In this document: piece after piece, positions 3,792-62,024 of the stretch
Layout of the letters: each line of letters begins with the position of its first letter
Numbering within the stretch: position 1 is the stretch's first letter
Source of the DNA: a virus
Strand: one strand, 5' to 3'
Virus record (IMG/VR): IMGVR_UViG_3300013099_000017
Coordinates: 62,001-126,000 of that record
Length of the DNA stretch: 64,000 bases
Made by a program: the position numbers and the translations under genes
Notes under the pieces: model-generated
What the model saw: the letters and a program-made list of their open reading frames with translations, nothing else
Told to the model about the DNA's origin: nothing
The model's database searches: none

Positions 3792-4222
3792 CAAGTAAAG
3801 TATTATGTGCTTTAGGTGTTAAAGATGGTAAAACCGAATATCTTTATGATTTTTCATGGGATTGTGATTGGTATTGGGGTGGTGGTTATGTTGGTAATAA
3901 ACACTTACATCATCATTTTAATGGGTTAGTTGGTGGAAACATTAACATGCATGATGCGTTTGAAGAATATTATGATAGTACCAAAATAACAAAAGATCAA
4001 TTGTGGCGATTGTGTGATCTTATGAAACAATTTTATGCTCATAGAGAAAGTTCTGAATGTTTTCAATGGGGTGGCAATTATACATGTTCAGGTAGATCTC
4101 ATGAAGAAATTAATTCTGATTTGGGTAAAGCATTAAATGAACATATCGAAAAGGTCATTATTCCCGAAGTTCGGAAATTATTGAAAGATGTTGATACGCA
4201 GGAATCTGTAAAAATATCTTAA
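3788..4222 (+). CDS. Hypothetical protein, 144 aa (His/Trp/Gly-rich)
   Basis: Unknown family, with a striking N-terminal block (about residues 24-50) of alternating Trp, Gly and His (WDCDWYWGGGYVG..HLHHHFNG), and two Cys at about 97 and 105. Such His/Cys clusters could bind a metal, but this is inference. The C-terminal third is helical. Last gene of the operon that starts at 2811; its stop abuts a box-type promoter. Confidence 0.6.
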   Translation: MTSKVLCALGVKDGKTEYLYDFSWDCDWYWGGGYVGNKHLHHHFNGLVGGNINMHDAFEEYYDSTKITKDQLWRLCDLMKQFYAHRESSECFQWGGNYTCSGRSHEEINSDLGKALNEHIEKVIIPEVRKLLKDVDTQESVKIS

Positions 4223-4227
4223 TATAT

Positions 4228-4269
4228 CCCATTGTGGGTATATACATCTATTGTTAAATATAAGATAAT
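4228..4269 (+). promoter_or_regulatory. Early promoter, CCCATTGTGGG-box type
   Basis: Box 4228-4238, 25-base spacer, -10 GATAAT 4264-4269. Begins five bases after the preceding stop. Confidence 0.75.
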
Positions 4270-4282
4270 GTATTTGTGGTAA

Positions 4283-4320
4283 GGGGATTTCCCCAAATAG
4301 ATAAACTTCCAAAAGGAAAA
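4283..4320 (+). promoter_or_regulatory. Leader hairpin plus conserved ribosome-binding leader
   Basis: GGGG-ATTT-CCCC hairpin (4283-4294) near the predicted 5' end of the mRNA, then ATAAACTTCCAAAAGGAAA. The same arrangement recurs at 31778, 33245, 35111, 37034 and 39135, with compensating changes in the stem. Confidence 0.65.
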
Positions 4321-4324
4321 CACC

Positions 4325-4849
4325 ATGTATAATGGTAATTTTGAACAAGAATCTGAACAGGTCATTGAAAAATATGAACCGAAACTGAGAGTAATGTTTC
4401 CTGACTTTCATGTTAATATGAGAGTAAGTAAATTGCTTGGTACAACATTGTGGATTAATATATCTTCTCCGCATGAAATAACAAGACATAATGCAGATGT
4501 TAATATTGATTTTCATGTTTTCAATGAAGATCATGTTCCTTCATTAGAGAAAAATCTTTGTCCAAAAAAATATAAATTTCGTAAAATCAACGGTGATACC
4601 TTAGATGTTATGGTTGGTAAATTTATGGTTTGGATTGCAAAGAATGAATCTGAAATGAAATCCGATTGGGTTAATTATAAGGACAAGAAAATGAGTAAAT
4701 CAGATTATCAGGTGTATAAAAAAAATGGAAATCAATATGTCATTTATCAGGAATTTGATAAATGGAATATTTATCAACTTTCATGGTCTAGTGCTAATAA
4801 ATTAGTTTCTTCCCATGATACAAACGCAGAGGCGGTATCAGCATTATGA
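4325..4849 (+). CDS. Hypothetical protein, 174 aa
   Basis: Not recognised. Mixed alpha/beta, no membrane segment. The C-terminal 40 residues read like a small beta-module (YQVYKKNGNQYVIYQEF..WNIYQLSW). First gene of an operon running to 6956. Overlaps the next start by four bases. Confidence 0.6.
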   Translation: MYNGNFEQESEQVIEKYEPKLRVMFPDFHVNMRVSKLLGTTLWINISSPHEITRHNADVNIDFHVFNEDHVPSLEKNLCPKKYKFRKINGDTLDVMVGKFMVWIAKNESEMKSDWVNYKDKKMSKSDYQVYKKNGNQYVIYQEFDKWNIYQLSWSSANKLVSSHDTNAEAVSAL

Positions 4850-6956: not shown

Positions 6957-6961
6957 TATAT

Positions 6962-7003
6962 CCCATTGTGGGTATATACACAAATATTATATTATGTGAT
7001 AAT
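6962..7003 (+). promoter_or_regulatory. Early promoter, CCCATTGTGGG-box type
   Basis: Box 6962-6972, 25 bases, -10 GATAAT 6998-7003 preceded by TGT (extended -10 like). Confidence 0.72.
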
Positions 7004-7038
7004 GGGTTCAAGATTAAATAAACAGGAAAGGAAATGAA

Positions 7039-13063: not shown

Positions 13064-13110
13064 TATATCTCTTAATGGGTATATACATATATATCCATTT
13101 GCTGTATTAT
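13064..13110 (+). promoter_or_regulatory. Early promoter, variant box (TCTCTTAATGGG)
   Basis: TATATCTCTTAATGGG ends at 13079; 25 bases later TATTAT (13105-13110). Leader AAACTTCCAAAAGGAAAA before 13140. Confidence 0.65.
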
Positions 13111-13139
13111 TTAGAAAAACTTCCAAAAGGAAAAATATA

Positions 13140-13655
13140 ATGAAAGATCATCCTATTACTTCAAAATGGGTTCAAGAAAATTTTAACATTGATGATGAAC
13201 GTCAAATTCTCAGAGAATTGGATTATTCCGGTGATTTTGTAGATTTGATTGAAGCAGATGTTGGTGATGGTGTATCTATTTCTGAATTTATTGAAATTGT
13301 TAAATCATCATTAAAAGGTCATGATTTTGTGTCCTTTAATGAAATTCGATATTCCGGAACCACATTAGATTTATCAAAATGGGTATCTGCTACTGAAACT
13401 GATAATCAAGTTATTGATCGATTAAAAGTTGAAGAACGGGCAAAACGCAAAGTCATTAAACAGGAAGAACAAGATCGTGTTGATTATGAACGATTGAAAC
13501 TCAGATTTGAACCGAAATCAATAACCAAAGTAAATTTGGATTTACTTGAATGTAGTCAATGTCGATTGGGTAAAAATTATTTAAATCTTTGTGATTTAAC
13601 ACATCCTGAATTTACTGAGTGCTTAGAATATGTTAATAATCATGAGGATTTATAA
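13140..13655 (+). CDS. Hypothetical protein, 171 aa
   Basis: Not recognised. Acidic N-terminal half, a helical charged middle (about 98-120) and a C-terminal stretch with four Cys (ECSQCRLGKNYLNLCDLTHPEFTEC split over residues 136-164) that may form a metal site. First gene of the 13140-15284 operon. Confidence 0.55.
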   Translation: MKDHPITSKWVQENFNIDDERQILRELDYSGDFVDLIEADVGDGVSISEFIEIVKSSLKGHDFVSFNEIRYSGTTLDLSKWVSATETDNQVIDRLKVEERAKRKVIKQEEQDRVDYERLKLRFEPKSITKVNLDLLECSQCRLGKNYLNLCDLTHPEFTECLEYVNNHEDL

Positions 13656-23262: not shown

Positions 23263-24395
23263 GACAATTTCCAACTTTATATAAATTTGATACAAAAGGA
23301 AAAGTTCGCAGATGGGATATTTATTCTGATGAAAATATTTTTGTAGTTGAACATGGTTTAGATGGAGGTAAAATTCAATCAAAACCAACAAAATGTAAAC
23401 CCAAAAATATTGGTAAAACAAACGAAACTACACCCGAAGAACAGGCTGAAAAAGAAGCTGTTGCAAGATGGGAAAAACAAATTCGTATAGAAGATTATGC
23501 CGAAAATATTAATGAAGCTGGGTTACAAAATAGACCAATGTTGGCACATGATTATCGAAAAGTACCACATCGAGTTAATTGGAATTATACTACATGTCAA
23601 TTTAAATTAGATGGTCTGCGTTTACTTGGTGGTTATCGTTGGGATGATTCAGCACTTGTTGAATTAATGAGCAGAAAGGGTGAGGTTTATCCTATACCAC
23701 ATTTTCAGCGTCCAGTAGAAGAATTACTTGAAATCATTATTGATGAAATTGGATATGATTGTCATGCTATTGATGGTGAAGCATATATTCATGGTATGAA
23801 ATTACAACATATTACAAGTTTAGCAAGAAAAAATAAACCAGAATCATTTGATTTAAAATATTACTTATTTGATTTGGTTATGTATCATACTGAATTTGGT
23901 GAACGTTTTGGTATTTTAGAAAAAGCATTAAAAATTTATTCAAACCGCAATAATGGTAGTGATCATCCATTTGTATTAGTTGAAGTAACATCATGTGAAA
24001 ATGAAGATCAAATGAAAACTTTTCATGGTCAGGCAATTGAAAAGGGATATGAGGGTGCTATGATCCGTCATATAAACGGCAAATATAAAAAGGGACGTTC
24101 TGCCGATTTATTCAAGTATAAAGAATTTTTTGATGTTGAATGTAAAATCATTGGAATGAAATCAGATAATAATGATAATGCCATGTTTGTTGTCATTGCT
24201 CCCAATGGTGTGGAACTTGATGTAACACCAAAACGTACACACAAAGAACGTAAAGAAATGTTAAAACATCCTGATGATTATATCGGAAAATGGCTTACTG
24301 TTAAATATCAGGCATTAACTGAATCCGGTAATTTACAATTTCCAATTGGTTTAGATTTACGTGAATGTGGTGATGATGGTAAACCAATTATATGA
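23259..24395 (+). CDS. ATP-dependent DNA ligase
   Basis: 378 aa. Motif I FKLDGLR with adenylated Lys116; IDGEAYIHG (motif III area), YEGAMIRH (motif IV) and LFKYKEFFD (motif V) are in order, then an OB-type C-terminal domain. The first 45 residues (LYKFDTKGKVRRWDIYSDEN) look like a WGR-like module, unusual at the front of a phage ligase. Joins Okazaki fragments after the RNase H-like nuclease. TATA-free, within a run of coupled genes. Confidence 0.92.
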   Translation: MRQFPTLYKFDTKGKVRRWDIYSDENIFVVEHGLDGGKIQSKPTKCKPKNIGKTNETTPEEQAEKEAVARWEKQIRIEDYAENINEAGLQNRPMLAHDYRKVPHRVNWNYTTCQFKLDGLRLLGGYRWDDSALVELMSRKGEVYPIPHFQRPVEELLEIIIDEIGYDCHAIDGEAYIHGMKLQHITSLARKNKPESFDLKYYLFDLVMYHTEFGERFGILEKALKIYSNRNNGSDHPFVLVEVTSCENEDQMKTFHGQAIEKGYEGAMIRHINGKYKKGRSADLFKYKEFFDVECKIIGMKSDNNDNAMFVVIAPNGVELDVTPKRTHKERKEMLKHPDDYIGKWLTVKYQALTESGNLQFPIGLDLRECGDDGKPII

Positions 24396-25165
24396 ATAAA
24401 TTGAGGGAAAATCAGGGGGGATATTTCATAACACGAAAATCCCCGTTTATTGAAGGTGTTGAATTTAAGAAAAAAGCTATTGAAGTTGTATTTAATTTTG
24501 CTTATGCTATGACATTTGGAGAAGGTGAACATCGAGATCATAGAACTGGTGGAAGTTATAATAGAAAAAAAGGTCAAATTTTCATTAATGCTTTCCAAGG
24601 TAAATTAGCCGAAATAGCTATATTTGATGTATTCAATAAAATAAATAAGGAAGCATATAATAAATTATCTAAGATAGATTTTGATATTTATGGTTTGGGT
24701 GAATGGGATGATAGTGATATAGTTTTGGGAAAATTGAAATTTTCGATTAAATCTACAAAACATTATGGAAATTTATTATTACTTGAAACGAAAGATTGGA
24801 ATAATGCAGGGGAATATCTTCCAAATAAAAATACAGATAAAACTTGCATATATGATTATTTTGTATTAGTTAGAATTAAGCCTGATGGTGAAAAAGTAAT
24901 GAAGGAAAATAGATTACTATATTCTAATGATTATATTGAGAAGGATCATTTGTTTTCATTAATATATCAAGAACAATGGTTTTATGATATTGCAGGATAC
25001 ATAACCAATAATAACTTTAAATATATAATCGAAAATGATTTTGTTCTACCAAAGGGGGGATTACTTAATGGTAAGATACCTATGGATGCCGAAAACTATT
25101 ATGTTCAAAGTGGCGATTTAAATGATTTTCAGCGATTAGTTGGTCGATTTAAAAATACTAATTAA
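24392..25165 (+). CDS. Putative PD-(D/E)XK-type endonuclease, 257 aa
   Basis: Unknown protein with a nuclease-like core: GKLAEIAIFDVF helix, then FDIYGLGEWDDSDIVLGKLKFSIKSTKH, which fits an acidic residue, a hairpin and S-x-K of a restriction-type active site. The C-terminal part is aromatic-rich. It overlaps the ligase gene by four bases. It might degrade host DNA, act in repair, or restrict rival phages; there is no paired methylase next to it. Fold assignment is by pattern only. Confidence 0.5.
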   Translation: MNKLRENQGGYFITRKSPFIEGVEFKKKAIEVVFNFAYAMTFGEGEHRDHRTGGSYNRKKGQIFINAFQGKLAEIAIFDVFNKINKEAYNKLSKIDFDIYGLGEWDDSDIVLGKLKFSIKSTKHYGNLLLLETKDWNNAGEYLPNKNTDKTCIYDYFVLVRIKPDGEKVMKENRLLYSNDYIEKDHLFSLIYQEQWFYDIAGYITNNNFKYIIENDFVLPKGGLLNGKIPMDAENYYVQSGDLNDFQRLVGRFKNTN

Positions 25166-25447
25166 CTACTTGATTTAAAACGCTATTCTTATTAAATGAC
25201 GTTTAAATGACCATTTAATAAGAATATCCATCCTACCACACCAATTCACATATTAAAACGTCATTTAAACGTCAAATAAAAGCAACTTTTCCTTATAAAT
25301 CAACAACTTATCCCATAATAAGAAAATCCTTATAAATCAATGACTTAGAAAAAGCCTTGGTATTGTTGGAAACTCATATAAACACTGAAAAATATTCATA
25401 TTAAGTATGAATATTATGCATATTAAAAAAATAATGCTTGACAGGGG
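25166..25447 (+). other. Repeat-rich non-coding region, candidate replication origin
   Basis: No gene over about 420 bases to 25585. Contains nested inverted repeats: 14 bp (25185-25198 with 25212-25225), 14 bp (25198-25211 with 25260-25273), 10 bp (25391-25400 with 25406-25415). A 14-bp direct repeat TCCTTATAAATCAA occurs at 25290 and 25327, with TTATCCCA near the first. Very AT-rich. Organised repeats next to ligase and a strong promoter suggest an origin; a regulatory hub is the alternative. Confidence 0.5.
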
Positions 25448-25475
25448 TTGACAAGATTTCAACTAGTGGTATAAT
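25448..25475 (+). promoter_or_regulatory. Strong sigma70 promoter with operator-like dyad
   Basis: TTGACA (25448-25453), 16 bases, TATAAT (25470-25475). A second TTGACA starts at 25438. AGTGG and CCACT flank the -10 symmetrically, like a repressor site. The leader to 25586 is about 100 nt and holds a GCCT/GGC..GCC/AGGC hairpin (25535-25556). Confidence 0.75.
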
Positions 25476-25585
25476 TCCACTGTTAATAATGAATGTTAGG
25501 GATCTATAATATATTATGTAGAAGAAAAAGGTTTGCCTTTGGCAATGCCGTAGGCAGTTAATTAATGAATAATAAGGAATAAATA

Positions 25586-25903
25586 ATGAATTTAAAGTTT
25601 GATAAAGAACATTGGTTAAAAGATAAAGAGTATTTTAACAAAAATGATGGTGTTGATCTTGATGTTGAATTAATGGATAAGTATAAATATTATTTTTTTG
25701 GTTTTATAGATTCTCCTGTTGATATATATGAGAATGTTGTTATTGAAGCCAAATCAAATAATTTTCATAATGAAGATAAATTAAGATTATATCTTGATTC
25801 ATATCGTGGTACTTGTAAAAAATTGATATTGTATTGTATTTTACGAAATAATAATGATATGTTAAGATTAAGATATGTAATAATTCCGGAGGATGTTGAA
25901 TAA
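25586..25903 (+). CDS. Hypothetical protein, 105 aa (tandem paralogue 1)
   Basis: Not recognised. Shares with the next gene the start FDKEHWL.DKE.F, then LDVELMDKYK.YFFGF...PVD, RLYLDS.RGT.KL.LY.ILRN. Acidic and soluble. The pair is read from the strong promoter at 25448, so it should be abundant early. Tandem duplication is clear from the sequence. Confidence 0.65.
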   Translation: MNLKFDKEHWLKDKEYFNKNDGVDLDVELMDKYKYYFFGFIDSPVDIYENVVIEAKSNNFHNEDKLRLYLDSYRGTCKKLILYCILRNNNDMLRLRYVIIPEDVE

Positions 25904-26208
25904 TGCAATTAATATTTGATAAAGAACATTGGTTAAGGGATAAAGAAGAATTCCAAAATGATCTTGATGAACTTGATGTTGAATTGATGGATAAGTATAA
26001 AGACTATTTTTTTGGTTTTATGGAATGTCCGGTTGATTCATATTATGACAATCAGTTGATTATTGCTAAAATTACTGATTTATATGATGAAGATGAATTG
26101 AGATTATATCTTGACTCACATCGTGGAACTGGGACAAAATTGGTATTATATCAGATTTTACGCAATGAAAATGGTATGATACGATTAAGATCGGCAATGA
26201 TTTCATAA
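25903..26208 (+). CDS. Hypothetical protein, 101 aa (tandem paralogue 2)
   Basis: Second copy of the pair, TAATG-coupled to the first after GGAGGATG. Roughly half of the residues are identical over the full length. The copies differ most in the loop after residue 15 and at the C-terminus. Confidence 0.65.
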   Translation: MQLIFDKEHWLRDKEEFQNDLDELDVELMDKYKDYFFGFMECPVDSYYDNQLIIAKITDLYDEDELRLYLDSHRGTGTKLVLYQILRNENGMIRLRSAMIS

Positions 26209-26255
26209 TATATCTCTTTTGGGATATATATATTTCATGAAAATTAAACGATAAT
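26209..26255 (+). promoter_or_regulatory. Early promoter, variant box (TCTCTTTTGGG)
   Basis: TATATCTCTTTTGGG ends at 26223; 26 bases later GATAAT (26250-26255). Leader ATTTCCAAAAGGAAAA before 26292. The box flanks pair as an AT-rich hairpin. Confidence 0.68.
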
Positions 26256-26291
26256 ACAAGCATAAGATAAATTTCCAAAAGGAAAATAGTT

Positions 26292-26501
26292 ATGTCAATC
26301 ATTACATTAACAGCATTAGTTGAAGATAATGTACTCAATTTATATCCTGCAATATCAAAAGATGATAAGTGGTTTATTAGACATGATGGTGGTGCTAATG
26401 GTCAATTCACATTATTTGAAGTTTTAAGCAATGATGAAGTAGTAATAGTTGATTATTTTTCTACTGTTGATAAAGCAATTGAAGTAGGACAAAAACTATA
26501 A
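26292..26501 (+). CDS. Hypothetical protein, 69 aa
   Basis: Not recognised. Beta-rich small protein with RHDGGANGQFTLFEVLSNDEVVIVDYFST. Coupled by TAATG to the next gene. Confidence 0.55.
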   Translation: MSIITLTALVEDNVLNLYPAISKDDKWFIRHDGGANGQFTLFEVLSNDEVVIVDYFSTVDKAIEVGQKL

Positions 26502-27268: not shown

Positions 27269-27425
27269 AGAACCATGTATTGATTGTCCGGATAAAGAAG
27301 AAATTCTTAAATTATTAAATTCGGTTCATGATAAGGGTGTACCAAATTGGTCAACATCTGATCTTCAATTGGTTCGTGAAAATTTGAAGTTATTAACTTA
27401 TCTTTGGTTCAGGGTCGAATTATGA
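27258..27425 (+). CDS. Hypothetical protein, 55 aa
   Basis: Not recognised. CIDC pair near the N-terminus, then helices. Start at 27258 is the first ATG clear of the long upstream shadow frame. Overlaps the methyltransferase start. Confidence 0.5.
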   Translation: MKNKEPCIDCPDKEEILKLLNSVHDKGVPNWSTSDLQLVRENLKLLTYLWFRVEL

Positions 27426-28354
27426 ATGTATTGGGATTGTTTTCTGGTATTGGTGGATTTGAATATGGATTACAAAATGTTGGATATAATATTAAGGCAT
27501 TATGTGAGATTGAACCATATCCAGTTTCAGTATTAAAGAAAAACTTTCCAACTATACCTATAATTAATGACGTTAGGGATATTGTTCATAATTCATTTAA
27601 AGATATTGATGTTATTGCTGGTGGATTTCCATGTACAGATATATCCAGAGCAGGAAAAATGAATGGTGGTATACGTGGTGAAAAATCTGGATTATGGTTT
27701 GAATTTAGGAGAATAATAAATGACATTAAACCAAAATATGCTATTATTGAAAACGTCAATTCAATACTTGGAAACGGAATTGAAACAGTCTTATCCAACC
27801 TTGCCGAAATCGGGTATGATGCGACTTGGACATCGTATGACACAAAATACTTTGGATTACCACAACGTAGAAGTAGAGTGTATATTATTGCCGTTCGTGA
27901 CGGAATCAAAGACGGAACCGAAATCTTCCAGTTTAAAGAACGTAGTACAGAACAACACAGATACAAAGTTCAATCTATCAAAAAGAGCTTTGAATGGGAT
28001 TATACGCAGGATGGAAGAATCGAAAATCCCTTTGCCTTTTTTACTAGACAAAGAAGTGATGAATTTGCTTGTACAGGATTAAGTTCTACTTTAATGAAGC
28101 GAGATTATAAAGATTTTACCGATATAATAGCCCAAAATGGACAATTAAGACGGGTTACACCAACTGAGCGTATGTTGTTGCAGGGGTTTCCAAAAGATTG
28201 GCTTATAAAGTCAACTAACACCAATATGTATTCATGCAATGGAATGAGTGTACCAGTTATTGAAGAAATTGGAAAACAATTATTTCAATATGATAAAAAA
28301 TATGGTATGATGTCATATGTTAAAGATATTAAACTACAAAGGAAATTGTTTTGA
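27422..28354 (+). CDS. DNA cytosine-5 methyltransferase
   Basis: 310 aa with the full C5 motif series: I LGLFSGIGGFEYGL (4-17), IV GGFPCTDISRAG with catalytic Cys71, VI IIENV, VIII LPQRRSRVYII, IX/X RRVTPTERMLLQGFPKDW and NGMSVPVIEEIG. The variable region for target choice is short. Likely protects phage DNA from host restriction. ATG 27422 is chosen because the family begins M-x-V-L-x-L-F-S-G. Bases about 27740-27970 use more C- and G-ending codons than either flank, so the gene may be a mosaic. Confidence 0.92.
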   Translation: MNVLGLFSGIGGFEYGLQNVGYNIKALCEIEPYPVSVLKKNFPTIPIINDVRDIVHNSFKDIDVIAGGFPCTDISRAGKMNGGIRGEKSGLWFEFRRIINDIKPKYAIIENVNSILGNGIETVLSNLAEIGYDATWTSYDTKYFGLPQRRSRVYIIAVRDGIKDGTEIFQFKERSTEQHRYKVQSIKKSFEWDYTQDGRIENPFAFFTRQRSDEFACTGLSSTLMKRDYKDFTDIIAQNGQLRRVTPTERMLLQGFPKDWLIKSTNTNMYSCNGMSVPVIEEIGKQLFQYDKKYGMMSYVKDIKLQRKLF

Positions 28355-31418: not shown

Positions 31419-31428
31419 TGATATATAT

Positions 31429-31470
31429 CCCATTGTGAGTATATACATTAACATTTAATAATGTGATAAT
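31429..31470 (+). promoter_or_regulatory. Early promoter, CCCATTGTGAG-box type
   Basis: Box 31429-31439, 25 bases, GATAAT 31465-31470 preceded by TGT. Leader is unlike the others (GTGAGAGATAGCGTTCCC) but carries AAAGGAG before 31519. Confidence 0.68.
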
Positions 31471-31518
31471 AATCCTGTAGTGAGAGATAGCGTTCCCATT
31501 TAAAGAAAAGGAGTCGAT

Positions 31519-31722: not shown

Positions 31723-31790
31723 TTGATCTAGATCAAGGTAAATATCCTCTATCATTGATATACTATATTTGTGGTGAGGGAATTGTTCCC
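31723..31790 (+). promoter_or_regulatory. FNR-box promoter with leader hairpin
   Basis: TTGATCTAGATCAA (31723-31736), centre 29 bases before TATACT (31759-31764), i.e. -41.5. Downstream is the leader hairpin GGGAA-TTG-TTCCC (31778-31790), then AAACTTCCAAAAGGAAA. Confidence 0.7.
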
Positions 31791-31822
31791 AAAATAGAAA
31801 AACTTCCAAAAGGAAATTCAAA

Positions 31823-32398
31823 ATGAAAGCAACACATAAAGGTACTTGTCAATGTTGTGGTGCAATGCAAAAACTTCCAAATGGCGTATTATCTAATCAT
31901 GGTTATACAGTTGATTGGGGTATGTTCAATGGCACTTGTCAAGGTGCAGGTCATAAGCCTTTTGAAAAATCAACAGATTTAATCGAAAGTTTCATAAATC
32001 AAGCCAAAGCTCAAATCGAAAATTTAAACAATGAAATCAGTGAAGTTTCTAATTCAACTGATGTTAAATCGGTTTGGTATCGTAAATATATTCCTGCAAC
32101 ATACAGCAAACAAGCACATTATGTTTGGGAAAAACGTGGTTTATTATTAGATAAAGTTTATTCTGAAAGATTTACTTCTTGGAAATGGGATAGTTTACCA
32201 ACTGATACCAAAGACGTTAATCGTGGTAAAACAGGTGTTGGTGATCATAAACCAAATCCCGATGATGCAGTTAAATTTGAAAATGAAAAATATACCGCAA
32301 TGTTAAGCAAAAAGGTTCAAGGTATTGAAGGTTATATCCAATGGCAAGAAGAACGTATTTCCGGTTGGACTGAGCAACCTTTACAGGAAATTAAATAA
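31823..32398 (+). CDS. Zinc-finger protein of phage/plasmid type, 191 aa
   Basis: N-terminus CQCCGAMQKLPNGVLSNHGY and later FNGTCQGAGHKPFEKS give three or four Cys/His ligands in the pattern C-x-x-C-G-x-x-Q-x-L-P-x-G-x-L-x-x-H-G-Y-T-V, common in plasmid and phage proteins of unknown role. A coiled-coil region follows (about 50-75) and a basic middle. First gene of an FNR-box operon, coupled to the next by TAATG. Confidence 0.65.
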   Translation: MKATHKGTCQCCGAMQKLPNGVLSNHGYTVDWGMFNGTCQGAGHKPFEKSTDLIESFINQAKAQIENLNNEISEVSNSTDVKSVWYRKYIPATYSKQAHYVWEKRGLLLDKVYSERFTSWKWDSLPTDTKDVNRGKTGVGDHKPNPDDAVKFENEKYTAMLSKKVQGIEGYIQWQEERISGWTEQPLQEIK

Positions 32399-33020: not shown

Positions 33021-33184
33021 TGAAAAAATATAAATTCTCTGTTATTTATTTCATCTATAATGAAGAAGATGAAATAAAAAAAGTTATTGATGTTATGTAT
33101 GGCTCAGGACATCAATCAGTTGTAGATGAAATCAAAAAACTGGAAAATTTTGTCACTATGGTTTATATTGGAGTAATTGAGTAA
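33020..33184 (+). CDS. Hypothetical protein, 54 aa
   Basis: Not recognised. Beta-alpha-beta pattern: KYKFSVIYFIYNEEDEIKKVIDVMYG...LENFVTMVYIGVIE. Coupled by TAATG; last gene before the promoter at 33190. Confidence 0.5.
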   Translation: MKKYKFSVIYFIYNEEDEIKKVIDVMYGSGHQSVVDEIKKLENFVTMVYIGVIE

Positions 33185-33189
33185 TATAT

Positions 33190-33231
33190 CCCATTGTAGG
33201 TATATATTTATCAATATAATTGTGAGATACT
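33190..33231 (+). promoter_or_regulatory. Early promoter, CCCATTGTAGG-box type
   Basis: Box 33190-33200, 25 bases, GATACT 33226-33231. Leader hairpin GGGG-ATTT-CCCC (33245-33256), then AAACTTCCAAAAGGAAA. Confidence 0.72.
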
Positions 33232-33287
33232 ATACTTGTGGTGAGGGGATTTCCCCAATTAGATAAACTTCCAAAAGGAAATAAATC

Positions 33288-33785
33288 ATGAACTATTTTT
33301 CTGCCGTTTCAACTGTCGAAGAAATCAAAAAACTTTATCGTAAATTGTGTTCTAAATTTCATCCGGATCGTGGTGGTGATTTAGAAATCATGAAAACGGT
33401 AAACGTTCAATATAAAGAATCCCTTGCTGGAAATCATGGTCAAAAATCTACCGATAATTTTGGTAAAGAACATACTTATTACTACAATGAGCATGTAGAA
33501 GATGCATTGATGGAAAAAATTCAGGAACTTTTAGCCCTCAATATGACAGGTGTTGAAGTTGCTTTAATTGGTGTTTGGATTTGGGTGACGGGCGATAATA
33601 CTAAAGATTATCGCACACAATTCAAAAACCTTAAATTACGTTGGCACTCAAAGCGTCAAGCGTGGTACTTTCAAACAAGTAAGAAGCGTACCAAATATAA
33701 GAGAAACTTTTCAATGGATGATATGGCTCATGCTTATGGTTATCAGACATTCAAAAGTGATGATAATAAATTGGCACTTGCCTAA
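33288..33785 (+). CDS. J-domain (DnaJ-like) protein, 165 aa
   Basis: N-terminal J domain with LYRKLCSKFHPDRGGD: the HPD tripeptide (about 26-28) that stimulates Hsp70 ATPase is present. The C-terminal part (VALIGVWIWVTGDNTKDYRTQFKNLKLRWHSKRQAWYF split over 98-133) is a module often fused to J domains in phages and plasmids. Probably recruits host DnaK. Own promoter with a hairpin leader, so likely made strongly. Confidence 0.85.
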   Translation: MNYFSAVSTVEEIKKLYRKLCSKFHPDRGGDLEIMKTVNVQYKESLAGNHGQKSTDNFGKEHTYYYNEHVEDALMEKIQELLALNMTGVEVALIGVWIWVTGDNTKDYRTQFKNLKLRWHSKRQAWYFQTSKKRTKYKRNFSMDDMAHAYGYQTFKSDDNKLALA

Positions 33786-33928: not shown

Positions 33929-34120
33929 ATGATCAAATCACAACAAAATGCTCTTGTTGTTCTTTCTGTTATGGGTGAACTTGTTACAGAAAAAATTTCA
34001 AAAATTATTGAACTTGAAGAAGAACTTGCACAAGTAAAAAAAGAATTGGAGCAAGAGCGCAATATGAAAGAATATTTAGTTGCTTTAACTTCGGTAAAAT
34101 ACCCATTAAGAGATATATAA
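33929..34120 (+). CDS. Coiled-coil protein, 63 aa
   Basis: A Glu/Lys-rich coiled coil runs from about residue 22 to 48 (ISKIIELEEELAQVKKELEQE). Basic N-terminus. TATAGGATAATATT upstream. Function unknown. Confidence 0.55.
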   Translation: MIKSQQNALVVLSVMGELVTEKISKIIELEEELAQVKKELEQERNMKEYLVALTSVKYPLRDI

Positions 34121-34183
34121 ATTATTTTTTAAGTATGTAATAATAAAGTCTGAATTGAGATAAACTTCCAAAAGGAAATCAAA

Positions 34184-34603
34184 ATGGCTGAGTCAGCAAA
34201 GTTCAAAAAATACGAAATGGTTTGTAAATCTTCAAAGAAATCTCAAGAACGAAATGACTGTTCCGTAAAAGCTGTATCAATGGCAGGACGGGTTTCATAT
34301 AAAGAAGCTCATAGACGTTGTGCAGAACATGGTAGAATTAATAATAAGGGTATGATGAATAGCCAAATTAATTCTACATTGGAAGATTTAGGATTTGAAT
34401 TGCAACTAATTGAAAACCTTTATCAAAAGAATGGTTCTAAATACACTCCTAAGACTATTGGGAAGCGTTTAAAGGCAGGTTATTACATTGTTTATGTTAA
34501 AGGGCATGTGTTCCCTGTAATCAATGGTACGGTCTTTGATTGGTCTGCTAATAGACAACATAGAATCTACCAAGCATATAAAATTGTAAGGAAGCGTACA
34601 TAA
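34184..34603 (+). CDS. Papain/C39-like cysteine protease-fold protein, 139 aa
   Basis: RNDCSVKAVSMAGRVSYKEAHRRCAEHGR (about 25-53) followed by a C-terminal GYYIVYVKGHVFPVINGTVFDW: a Cys at the start of a helix, then G-H and N in strands, the order of a papain-like Cys-His-Asn site. I know of phage proteins with this layout, but protease activity is not proven. Preceded by the AAACTTCCAAAAGGAAA leader with TAATAAT at about 34139; no box can be seen upstream. Confidence 0.6.
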   Translation: MAESAKFKKYEMVCKSSKKSQERNDCSVKAVSMAGRVSYKEAHRRCAEHGRINNKGMMNSQINSTLEDLGFELQLIENLYQKNGSKYTPKTIGKRLKAGYYIVYVKGHVFPVINGTVFDWSANRQHRIYQAYKIVRKRT

Positions 34604-34810: not shown

Positions 34811-35053
34811 ATGACAAAGAAATCATTCCATCCAAAGAAATTATCTGATTATTCAGACATATGTCATTTGCGTGATACATTACATATATTACATGAAATT
34901 GATTGGGAAATTGATTTGATTAATGATAGTTTGCAAAACGATAATCATACGAAAACAACAACATTAAATAGATTGGAACGAAAAGATGAATTGGAAACGG
35001 TTTTGGGAACAGTTTTTAGTTTATTAAAACCATATGGGGAAAAATTCAGATAA
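34811..35053 (+). CDS. Hypothetical protein, 80 aa
   Basis: Not recognised. Two charged helices (about 20-42, 45-72). The ATG at 34811 is used because AAAAAGGAAATAAATATT lies upstream. Last gene before the 35057 promoter. Confidence 0.5.
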   Translation: MTKKSFHPKKLSDYSDICHLRDTLHILHEIDWEIDLINDSLQNDNHTKTTTLNRLERKDELETVLGTVFSLLKPYGEKFR

Positions 35054-35056
35054 TAT

Positions 35057-35124
35057 CCCATTGTGGGTATATACATTCATTAACTAATATAAGATAATAT
35101 ATTTGTGGTTGGGGGAAGTCTCCC
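35057..35124 (+). promoter_or_regulatory. Early promoter, CCCATTGTGGG-box type, with leader hairpin
   Basis: Box 35057-35067, 25 bases, GATAAT 35093-35098. The leader hairpin is GGGGG-AAGT-CTCCC (35111-35124), a compensated variant of the usual GGGG..CCCC. Leader ATTTTCAAAAGGAAA before 35154. Confidence 0.73.
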
Positions 35125-35153
35125 AAAAGATAAATTTTCAAAAGGAAATAATT

Positions 35154-35465
35154 ATGAATGGTTTATTAGTTTCAATCTATCGTGATGGATTTGGTGATTG
35201 TACAAATGGTGGTGTTTCAGGTCGTGTTAAACAGGCTGTAATCACTGGTGATTTAGTTGATTGTGATGTGTTTGAACCAACTGCTTTACAACCTGAAATG
35301 GTCATTGTGGAGCGTTATATAGGTACTAATAAATACCTTCATGCTGTTCCAAAAGATTTACATGAAAGTGGAAAATGGGTTATGTTTGGTGGTAATTTTC
35401 TTTATAGTTCAGACAGCCGTTTCCCTTCGGATCAACCAATTGCAATCCATGACAGGGTGGAATAA
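35154..35465 (+). CDS. Hypothetical protein, 103 aa
   Basis: Beta-rich: GLLVSIYRDGFGDCTNGGVSG...VTGDLVDCDVF, later DLHESGKWVMFGGNFLYSSDSRFPSDQPIAIHDRVE. I associate this with a small phage protein family of unknown function. The start is set by the conserved AAAAGGAAA leader. Confidence 0.6.
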   Translation: MNGLLVSIYRDGFGDCTNGGVSGRVKQAVITGDLVDCDVFEPTALQPEMVIVERYIGTNKYLHAVPKDLHESGKWVMFGGNFLYSSDSRFPSDQPIAIHDRVE

Positions 35466-36989: not shown

Positions 36990-37047
36990 ATCAATGTTAT
37001 TTTATCCAAGTTTGATAAACTATATATGTGGTTGGGGAATGATCCCC
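36981..37047 (+). promoter_or_regulatory. FNR-box promoter with leader hairpin
   Basis: TTGATCTAGATCAA (36981-36994) lies 28 bases (centre to hexamer) before TAAACT (37016-37021), i.e. -40.5. Leader hairpin GGGGA-ATGA-TCCCC (37034-37047), then ATTTTCAAAAGGAAA. The box overlaps the upstream stop codon. Confidence 0.68.
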
Positions 37048-37077
37048 AAAAGATAAATTTTCAAAAGGAAATAAATA

Positions 37078-37386
37078 ATGAGTGATCAGAATCCAATTTT
37101 AAAAATTACAACTGATAAGATGCATAAATTTGGAGTTCGTATTGTTAATACAGGTGATCATTATGGTCTTAATGATGTATTGGTTAATGATGGTGATCCA
37201 TTGGTAGAATTTTGGGATCATACAACTTTTGAAGAAGGTCAATTCGTTAGTCGATATTATGTTAAAACCATTTTAGATCATGAATATGGTCATGATTTAA
37301 ATTTAGATGGTGGTATTCCTGAGTGGTCTATTGATGCTAATTCCATGACTACTATTGTTGGTTGGTTAAATTTTATATTGGATTGA
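37078..37386 (+). CDS. Hypothetical protein, 102 aa (tandem paralogue 1)
   Basis: Not recognised. Shares with the next gene HKFGVRIVNTGDHY, VNDGDPLVEFWD, FVSRYYV..ILDHE.G..L.L.GGI..W.ID...M..IV.WLN. First gene of an FNR-box operon. Acidic, soluble. Confidence 0.6.
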   Translation: MSDQNPILKITTDKMHKFGVRIVNTGDHYGLNDVLVNDGDPLVEFWDHTTFEEGQFVSRYYVKTILDHEYGHDLNLDGGIPEWSIDANSMTTIVGWLNFILD

Positions 37387-39075: not shown

Positions 39076-39079
39076 TACA

Positions 39080-39146
39080 CCCACAATGGGATATATACAT
39101 TTTAATCTAATTATCGGATAATATACATGTGGTCGGGGAAATCCCC
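39080..39146 (+). promoter_or_regulatory. Early promoter, inverted box CCCACAATGGG, with leader hairpin
   Basis: Box 39080-39090, 26 bases, GATAAT 39117-39122. Leader hairpin GGGG-AAAT-CCCC (39135-39146), then AAACTTCCAAAAGGAAAA. Confidence 0.73.
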
Positions 39147-39176
39147 ATTTAGAAAAACTTCCAAAAGGAAAAGAAA

Positions 39177-40346
39177 ATGACCGATTTTAATACTGATGTG
39201 ATTGAAATACCTTCTGAAAATATTGATATTCTCAAAAAGAAAGTTGAACAAGTCAACAAAAAAGCGATTAAAAATGGTTTGGTTCCAATGGTTTTGACTA
39301 TTGGTGATGTTATCGAAACTAAACAAAAAGACCATTTTGGTAATGTTTCATATACCAAATCTTATCCGGTTTCAATTGCAGGTGAATATCCTGCTATTAA
39401 TGGTTGGAAATGTATTGCTAAAATTGATCATCGTGATGGTGTTAATATCGTTGCCATTTATGATGAAATTGATGTTTCAAAATATCGTGATCGTAAACCA
39501 ACATGTGATCATTGTGGTCATAACAAAATCAAGGTTCAATCTTATTTGATTCAAAATATTGAGTCAGGTGAAATTTTACAAATTGGTAAATCTTGTATTA
39601 AAGATTATATCAAGGGTGATCCTAAATGGATGCTTCAAATGCTTACTTGGATTCGTACCTTAGATGAACAACTGAAAGATGAATTTTCAATTGGTGGTGG
39701 TTCTGAATTTTATTATGACATTGAAAAAATTGCTTCTGCTTCTGCATTGTCAATTGAATTAAATGGTTTCGTTGGTTCGGGTGGTTATGATTATGACAAA
39801 ACACCTACCGTTTCAGATGTCAATGATTTCTTTTTTGGTAAACGTGATAATGATTGGTTAGGTTATTGGAAAATTACTGATGAAAATAAAGCTATTGCCA
39901 AAGGCATGATTGAATATTTCAATGAACAGTCAGGCGATAATAATTTTGTTATCACTATCAAGCAACTGTTAGAACTTGGTAAAGTTCGAGCTAAGTTCTT
40001 TTCATACATTGCAGGGGCAGTATCAGGCTATTTAAAGCATCTTGACCGTGAAGCTAAGAAAGCAGTCGATGAAAAAATTAAGCGTGTTAATGCTACCGTT
40101 GGTGAAGTTAAAAAGCGTCAAGATTTCAATGTTACTTTGGAATCACTGATTACTACTTCCGGTTTTTATGGAACAATTTATGTTCATAAATTCCGTAAAG
40201 ATACAGGTGAAACAATCGTTTGGTTTGCAAATGGTACTTCATTAGATCGTGAAATTGGTGATGAATTCACCATCAAAGCAACCGTTAAAAAGTTTGATGA
40301 ATATAATGGTTGGAAACAAACAATTGTTGTTAGAGTTAAGGATTGA
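39177..40346 (+). CDS. Large zinc-ribbon/OB-like phage protein, 389 aa
   Basis: Modules in order: helical N-terminus; a beta domain; a zinc ribbon TCDHCGHNK..SYLIQNIESGEILQIGKSCIKDYI (about 112-146, C-x-x-C and C); a long helical part; and a C-terminal beta-barrel like a nucleic acid-binding OB fold (FYGTIYVHKFRKDTGETIVWFANG...DEFTIKATVKKFDEYNGWKQTIV). I know this architecture from plasmids and phages; role unknown. It has its own promoter with a leader hairpin. Lys-rich, soluble. Confidence 0.7.
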   Translation: MTDFNTDVIEIPSENIDILKKKVEQVNKKAIKNGLVPMVLTIGDVIETKQKDHFGNVSYTKSYPVSIAGEYPAINGWKCIAKIDHRDGVNIVAIYDEIDVSKYRDRKPTCDHCGHNKIKVQSYLIQNIESGEILQIGKSCIKDYIKGDPKWMLQMLTWIRTLDEQLKDEFSIGGGSEFYYDIEKIASASALSIELNGFVGSGGYDYDKTPTVSDVNDFFFGKRDNDWLGYWKITDENKAIAKGMIEYFNEQSGDNNFVITIKQLLELGKVRAKFFSYIAGAVSGYLKHLDREAKKAVDEKIKRVNATVGEVKKRQDFNVTLESLITTSGFYGTIYVHKFRKDTGETIVWFANGTSLDREIGDEFTIKATVKKFDEYNGWKQTIVVRVKD

Positions 40347-43096: not shown

Positions 43097-43102
43097 ATAT
43101 AT

Positions 43103-43144
43103 CCACAATGGGATATATACCAATGTATCCCATTGTGTGATAAT
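43103..43144 (+). promoter_or_regulatory. Early promoter, double box
   Basis: CCACAATGGG (43103-43112), 26 bases, GATAAT (43139-43144). A second box copy CCCATTGTG sits inside the spacer, just before the -10, so this promoter may bind the same factor twice. Confidence 0.66.
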
Positions 43145-43181
43145 ATCTGTATTGTAGAAAACATTCCAAAAGGAAAATATT

Positions 43182-43598
43182 ATGAGTCGTTCTGTCAGTT
43201 ATCCTAATAATGCTAGTGTTGTCTGTTATATTGATGTGAGTTATATGGAAGATTCCGATGAATGGAATGATTTCATGGATTCATTAAAATATGTTATTTT
43301 AACAAAATATAAATCTTTTGAAGATGATGATCATTATATTGGTCGGGAATTAACTTCTGTTTTATCAAACCAACATGCTCAAATTGTGGTATCTGAATAT
43401 TGTGGATTAGCAAGCGTTTCTCTTGCTCCAATTGAATTTGATGGTTATGGTGAAGATTCGAGTTTACAAAATATTGCTAATGCATGGTGTAATTTGGTAT
43501 CTGATAACTTCAAAAAATTAATTGATAAACATTTTAATTCTTTAAATAAAGTTGCAACATTCAGCAATGGTGAATCTATGTATGAGTATGCATCATGA
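43182..43598 (+). CDS. Hypothetical protein, 138 aa
   Basis: Not recognised. YPNNASVVCYIDVSYMEDSDEWNDFMDSLKYVIL at the start resembles a small alpha/beta fold I have seen in other phage proteins. Acidic C-terminal part. Leader ATTCCAAAAGGAAA. Coupled to the next gene. Confidence 0.55.
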   Translation: MSRSVSYPNNASVVCYIDVSYMEDSDEWNDFMDSLKYVILTKYKSFEDDDHYIGRELTSVLSNQHAQIVVSEYCGLASVSLAPIEFDGYGEDSSLQNIANAWCNLVSDNFKKLIDKHFNSLNKVATFSNGESMYEYAS

Positions 43599-61670: not shown

Positions 61671-62024
61671 ATGAATGATAATGATGATTTTGTTCAGTAT
61701 TGTATAAAAAACTACAAAGCACGTTTTTTCTCACTGGATGAATTTAAAAAAGATTTAAGTACCGTAACCAATATTAAAAAAATGTTATCACGGTACTTAA
61801 CATCCAATAAAATTAATGAAAGACTTGTTTTAAATCATGTAATTACACTCAATAATGTATTTGGTGTGGAAGCAACTAATGTTATATTATTCTATAAATT
61901 GGAAGATAAATTTTATCCTGCCATTAAATCTATATTAATATTTCTTAATATATACATTCAGAGCAATCTTACACATAGAATAAAACAAGATGTTAAATTA
62001 ACCGATTTATTAGAAATATCTTGA
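61671..62024 (+). CDS. Conserved phage protein, 117 aa
   Basis: Pattern KNYKARFFSLDEFKKDLSTVTNIKKMLSRYLTSNKINERLVLNHVITLNNVFGVEATNVILFYKLEDKFYPAIKSILIFLNIYI: I recall this helical family from cyanophages and other T4-like viruses, just beside replication genes. Function unknown to me. Starts three bases after the previous stop. Confidence 0.65.
   Translation: MNDNDDFVQYCIKNYKARFFSLDEFKKDLSTVTNIKKMLSRYLTSNKINERLVLNHVITLNNVFGVEATNVILFYKLEDKFYPAIKSILIFLNIYIQSNLTHRIKQDVKLTDLLEIS

Follow-up and report, generated by a model that had tools for sequence, protein, structure and literature searches.

A probable early-promoter and leader cassette duplicated in the genome of a T4-like phage

The 420-base intergenic element at positions 25166–25585 (+ strand) is probably one of four copies of a regulatory cassette, an early promoter with its leader, that has been duplicated in a T4-like phage. 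Positions are those of the window, the whole 64,000-nucleotide stretch of DNA analysed, which is positions 62,001 to 126,000 of the 144,243-base IMG/VR record IMGVR_UViG_3300013099_000017 (here G000); the element, copy 1, is G000:87166–87585. A preliminary description took it for a candidate replication origin; that plausible call is corrected here, and the phage gains a family of near-perfect, putatively early promoters with a common leader. Judged by its genes, G000 is a T4-like phage. It has genes for a T4-type DNA polymerase (gp43) and clamp loader, UvsX, UvsY and UvsW, and in addition SbcC/SbcD-like gp46/47, a gp55-type late sigma factor, a replicative helicase, a primase and ribonucleotide reductase; T4-type late promoters (TATAAATA) are present, one of them 37 bases before uvsW.

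Four copies of a promoter and leader

The four copies, the quality of their promoters, the identity that runs on into the leader, the unrelated genes downstream and an upstream module present in two copies are all read directly from the sequence. The conserved core (25427–25556, + strand; promoter plus putative transcribed leader) occurs four times in G000, twice in each orientation and before unrelated genes, and a profile search of the genome found no others. The other three cores are 92%, 92% and about 85% identical to that of copy 1, the first two values being those of copy 3 (G000:134683–134809, + strand) and copy 4 (G000:24248–24366, − strand); copy 2 (G000:21486–21869, − strand) is 79% identical to copy 1 over element positions 26–418. 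The copy 1 promoter (25448–25475, + strand) consists of TTGACA, a 16-base spacer and TATAAT with the extended −10 motif TGn (hexamers 12/12), and a second TTGACA lies 10 bases upstream of it. The strong sigma70 promoter described earlier is upheld: the four copies are the four top-scoring sigma70 promoters of the 144 kb, all TTGACA-16-TGnTATAAT, a form for which about 0.03 sites would be expected in the genome by chance and four were observed. The −10 hexamer does lie inside a dyad in copy 1, as had been claimed (AGTGG-TATAATT-CCACT), but copies 2, 3 and 4 have lost its innermost pair. Inspection found no correctly placed MotA-like box, and a MotA-type middle promoter was rejected.

The shared core is CTTGACAGnnnTTGACAAnnTTTCAACTAGTGnTATAATTCCACTGTTAATAATGA, followed by a leader that ends in paired GCC/GGC mini-hairpins; in copy 1 these are GCCtttGGC and GCCgtaGGC (25535–25555, + strand), and in the other copies the stems are kept and the loop or orientation varies. 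Six of the seven GCCnnnGGC in the whole genome lie within the four cassettes. When folded as single sequences the leaders were not significantly more stable than shuffled sequence (z −0.07 to −1.24), so it is by their recurrence that the hairpins suggest a role in the RNA, and the leader may be conserved only through recent duplication or gene conversion. We envisage initiation by the host sigma70 RNA polymerase at about 25482, from the near-ideal extended promoter and presumably at early times; the polymerase would then transcribe the conserved leader of about 100 nt, whose small hairpins may have a function, into the tandem orphan genes at 25586–26208; a cassette of a second family (26209–26295) would then begin the next transcription unit.

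That second dispersed intergenic family has about 25 copies, some of them outside the window, and all clear copies are on the + strand. Its layout is a palindrome-like ATATCCCATTGTGGGTATAT (some copies have TTGATCTAGATCAA there), about 17 bases, an extended −10-like TGnGATAAT, AAACTTCCAAAAGGAAA and a start codon, and it looks like an activator-dependent (middle) promoter combined with a ribosome-binding site. Besides the copy just mentioned, it is found in the window at 207–299, 2728–2816, 4222–4330, 6957–7004, 13064–13145, 31424–31508, 31739–31827, 33184–33293, 34099–34190, 35053–35160, 37003–37083, 39076–39183 and 43098–43187.

Copy 1 follows the ligase gene and a 257-aa orphan and precedes two tandem orphan paralogues, and copy 3 is followed by a SegE-like GIY-YIG gene. 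Copy 4 is directed leftward and faces away from gp55, which reads rightward; an 86-aa orphan lies downstream of this copy. Copy 2 lies at a strand switch, between the leftward 67 aa–tail tube–uvsY block (G000:20359–21484, − strand) and the rightward uvsW. Many distant relatives have tube, uvsY, uvsW and gp55 on one strand, in that order, so the tube-uvsY block, which is inverted relative to uvsW, has been inverted in the G000 lineage. Copy 2, at the inversion junction, is predicted to supply the leftward promoter of the block, and the need of the inverted block for a promoter would be a simple explanation of its presence. This one cassette, at the break of an otherwise collinear tube-uvsY-uvsW-gp55 region, is a clear example of a regulatory cassette associated with rearrangement.

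Copy 2 is present in two other IMG/VR contigs that are 99.97–100% identical over the span, one of which also has copy 4; copy 3 is present in one other (99.7%), and G006, a relative phage genome 93% identical to G000, carries copies 2 and 4, so assembly error does not explain these three copies. Copy 1 was seen in G000 only. The exact core pattern was found among viral contigs only in close relatives of the G000 phage and was not found in GTDB genome contigs; blastn of 25166–25585 against 50,697 phage records gave no match, and an Rfam scan found tRNAs only. Between G000 and G006 the cores of copies 2 and 4 are 97% and 97.5% identical and the upstream part of copy 2 about 92% (third codon positions are mostly 86–96% identical), so promoter and leader appear to be more constrained than the array upstream of them. 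The 86-aa gene downstream of copy 4 is missing from G006, which retains the copy 4 promoter without any evident leftward gene before it; at least one of the copies may therefore be something other than an ordinary mRNA promoter.

The intergenic element and its upstream repeats

Open reading frames stop at 25165 and resume at 25586, and the 420 bases between them, with no + strand ORF of at least 40 aa, are by that criterion the longest gap in the window; the gene-free gap of the preliminary description stands, but it is not unique in the genome, where gaps of 428–1162 bases occur elsewhere. Its supposedly high AT content is ordinary (72.6% against a genome mean of 71.0%, the 68th percentile). 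The upstream neighbours had been called a ligase and a nuclease-like gene. The former is a ligase (PF01068; phrog_114); its only relatives in the viral-contig scan are 47% identical and lack both the intergenic element and the genes that follow. The latter (24392–25165, + strand; 257 aa) had no significant family match and gave a fold model too poor to use (pLDDT 33.5), so what is left of its label is a PD-(D/E)xK-looking stretch, SDIVLGKLKFSIKSTK; it is a possible candidate for a restriction-like enzyme. The first gene downstream (25586–25903, + strand; 105 aa) is followed by its tandem paralogue (25903–26208, + strand; 101 aa, 62.7% identical). Searches of phage records and viral contigs found no relatives of this pair, none were found for the 257-aa protein, and the structure model of the 105-aa protein was too poor to use. 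A C5 cytosine methyltransferase gene lies at 27404–28354, about 2.2 kb after the 257-aa orphan. Outside the window, another gene-free gap, G000:141198–141468 (L012:15198–15468), contains two tandem long-stem RNA domains (MFE −96.5 kcal/mol, z −9.3) with two tRNA T-arm-like hairpins, GGTTCAATTCC and GGGAGTTCAATTCTCCC; these domains had no Rfam or ARAGORN match.

The inverted repeats reported earlier, with arms of 14, 14 and 10 bp, are real and slightly longer than claimed, with arms of 15, 15, 13 and 10 bp. The first (25184–25198/25212–25226; perfect 15-bp arms, 13-base loop) begins 19 bases past the stop codon of the 257-aa gene; the second (25197–25211/25260–25274) also has perfect 15-bp arms, and a third with 13-bp arms (25192–25204/25256–25268) is interleaved with both. 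Two perfect inverted repeats with arms of at least 14 bp were thus observed, against a mean of 0.004 (maximum one) over 500 dinucleotide shuffles. The interleaved repeats between 25192 and 25274 are built of tandem 11-mers, ATTAAAACGTC/ATTTAAACGTC, at 25252–25273 and their inverted counterpart at 25198–25219; the 11-mer pair is partly retained in copies 2 and 3, and is diverged in copy 3. Tandem ATTTAAACGTC 11-mers like those at 25252–25273 also occur at L109:2844–2883, in a phage contig with contractile-tail genes; that phage is unrelated, and we judge the match coincidental. The 14-bp direct repeat of the preliminary description is likewise present, its exact core TCCTTATAAATCAA being part of a pair of 21-bp direct repeats, TCCTTATAAATCAAyrACTTA (25290–25347, + strand; starts 25290 and 25327, 37 bases apart), which are 90% identical and also occur twice in copy 2.

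Copies 1 and 2 have about 240 bases upstream of the core in common (the tandem 11-mers facing their inverted version, and the two 21-mers), the best-conserved part being a 51-base block (25230–25280) with one mismatch between them. The fourth inverted repeat, with perfect 10-bp arms (25391–25400/25406–25415), lies upstream of the −35 hexamer; in its place copies 3 and 4, and only these, have the perfect palindrome TTGACATATGTCAA (G000:134651 and 24395). The shared 240 bases count against the promoter-cassette reading, since a promoter would require neither that length nor so much repetition. The 11-mer/21-mer array is most likely a control region, to which a phage or host protein would bind.

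Origins of replication and other explanations

A promoter cassette and an origin are biologically not mutually exclusive. In T4, oriF is ori(uvsY), the origin associated with uvsY, and oriE, oriF and oriG lie close to a point where transcription strand or skew changes, although this is not required of all origins. At T4 oriE an early promoter is accompanied by iterons, at oriF and oriG a promoter by an AT-rich unwinding element, and UvsW removes R-loops at T4 origins (PMC3016281). The promoter expected of a T4-type R-loop origin is present here, and one could imagine that its RNA remains paired with the AT-rich leader, forming an R-loop from which leading-strand synthesis is primed, the 21-mers and 11-mers serving as iterons, UvsW later clearing the R-loops and copies 1 and 2 both being origins. 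We consider this possible but unlikely. In its favour, the phage encodes UvsW, UvsX, UvsY, gp43, a clamp loader, a helicase and a primase; the upstream array is present in two copies, one of which, copy 2, sits where the strand switches from the uvsY block to uvsW; copy 4 of G006 faces no evident leftward gene; and the leader 50-mers are less stable than 82–96% of the genome, which is not extreme, with 25385–25434 at the 99.4th percentile for low duplex stability.

No feature marks this site in particular as an origin: the strong promoter of the preliminary description stands, but promoter and leader belong to a dispersed four-copy family and the AT content is ordinary. The GC-skew check that had been proposed was run, and the cumulative curve climbs steadily past 87 kb and does not turn at copy 1; skew in G000 tracks the coding strand, and copy 1 shows no strand or skew switch, its flanking genes both being on the + strand and the skew monotonic. 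The core occurs at two places without the full repeat array, and a conserved promoter before varied genes accounts for the family without an origin. Because the genes around uvsY are rearranged in comparison with other T4-like phages, the argument from synteny with oriF is weak.

T4 origins, to our knowledge, share no motif. A bolder proposal, that the two long copies are portable, interchangeable origins in which early promoter, leader and iteron array were duplicated as a unit, seems to us quite unlikely. These two copies are nevertheless similar enough to the replication origins of T4 to justify a test; should they prove to be origins, the definition of a T4-type origin could be tested on four natural variants, two with the array and two without.

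It is very unlikely that the family is merely recently duplicated intergenic DNA with a bare promoter, alike through segmental duplication and gene conversion. The G000 and G006 copies do seem to exchange sequence variants, and the upstream part evolves at about the rate of third codon positions; on the other hand the core is conserved above that level and is kept at four places among unrelated flanks, and the 51-base block has its one mismatch between copies 1 and 2 against 79% identity overall. A terminator or attenuator of the ligase-nuclease operon is hardly credible, for although a 15-bp hairpin begins just after the stop codon, it is nearly all AT, with almost no G-C pairs and no U tract on the + strand, and the one site in the copy 1 region that scores as terminator-like, a GCC hairpin with a T-rich stretch after it, lies on the minus strand and has no equivalent in the other copies by the same scan, which found a terminator-like site upstream of copy 4 and none in copy 2.

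Comparison with known cassettes and origins of T4-type phages

The promoter and leader cassette that we prefer as the explanation has a parallel in the PeSLs, which are reportedly composite promoter-terminator cassettes of T4-type phages, in work ascribed to Arbiol and co-workers (2010) and Comeau and co-workers (2014). Such dispersed promoter/stem-loop cassettes have been implicated in gene shuffling in these phages (PMC4503421). As PeSLs are described, the family resembles them in being a set of dispersed, near-identical cassettes with host-type early promoters between the genes of a T4-like phage: the promoters (TTGACA-16-TGnTATAAT, 12/12) rank first to fourth in the genome, and the four copies, with cores 85–92% identical, precede unrelated genes. 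A further likeness to that description is that the cassettes adjoin orphan genes, a homing-type endonuclease gene among their neighbours, and rearrangements. As regards gene shuffling, a cassette is present at the tube-uvsY inversion junction and the 86-aa gene behind copy 4 is missing from G006. The family differs from PeSLs so described in having only four copies, in having its hairpins in the leader, downstream of the promoter, in the lack of a clear terminator before the copy 1 promoter, and in the 240-base repeat array of two copies. Compared by description only, it files as a variant of the PeSL kind rather than a proven member.

Among T4 origins, the element is like oriE in having an early-type promoter beside direct repeats in a T4-like phage, but the iterons of oriE are evenly spaced 12-mers, whereas the repeats of this element are a pair of 21-mers plus inverted tandem 11-mers, and they are present at two loci. 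It is like oriF and oriG in that a promoter is followed by an easily melted AT-rich leader, and copy 2 is in the uvsY/uvsW neighbourhood; it is unlike them in that the oriF and oriG promoter is a MotA-dependent middle promoter, whereas the promoter here is a perfect sigma70 promoter, and in that the strand does not switch at copy 1.
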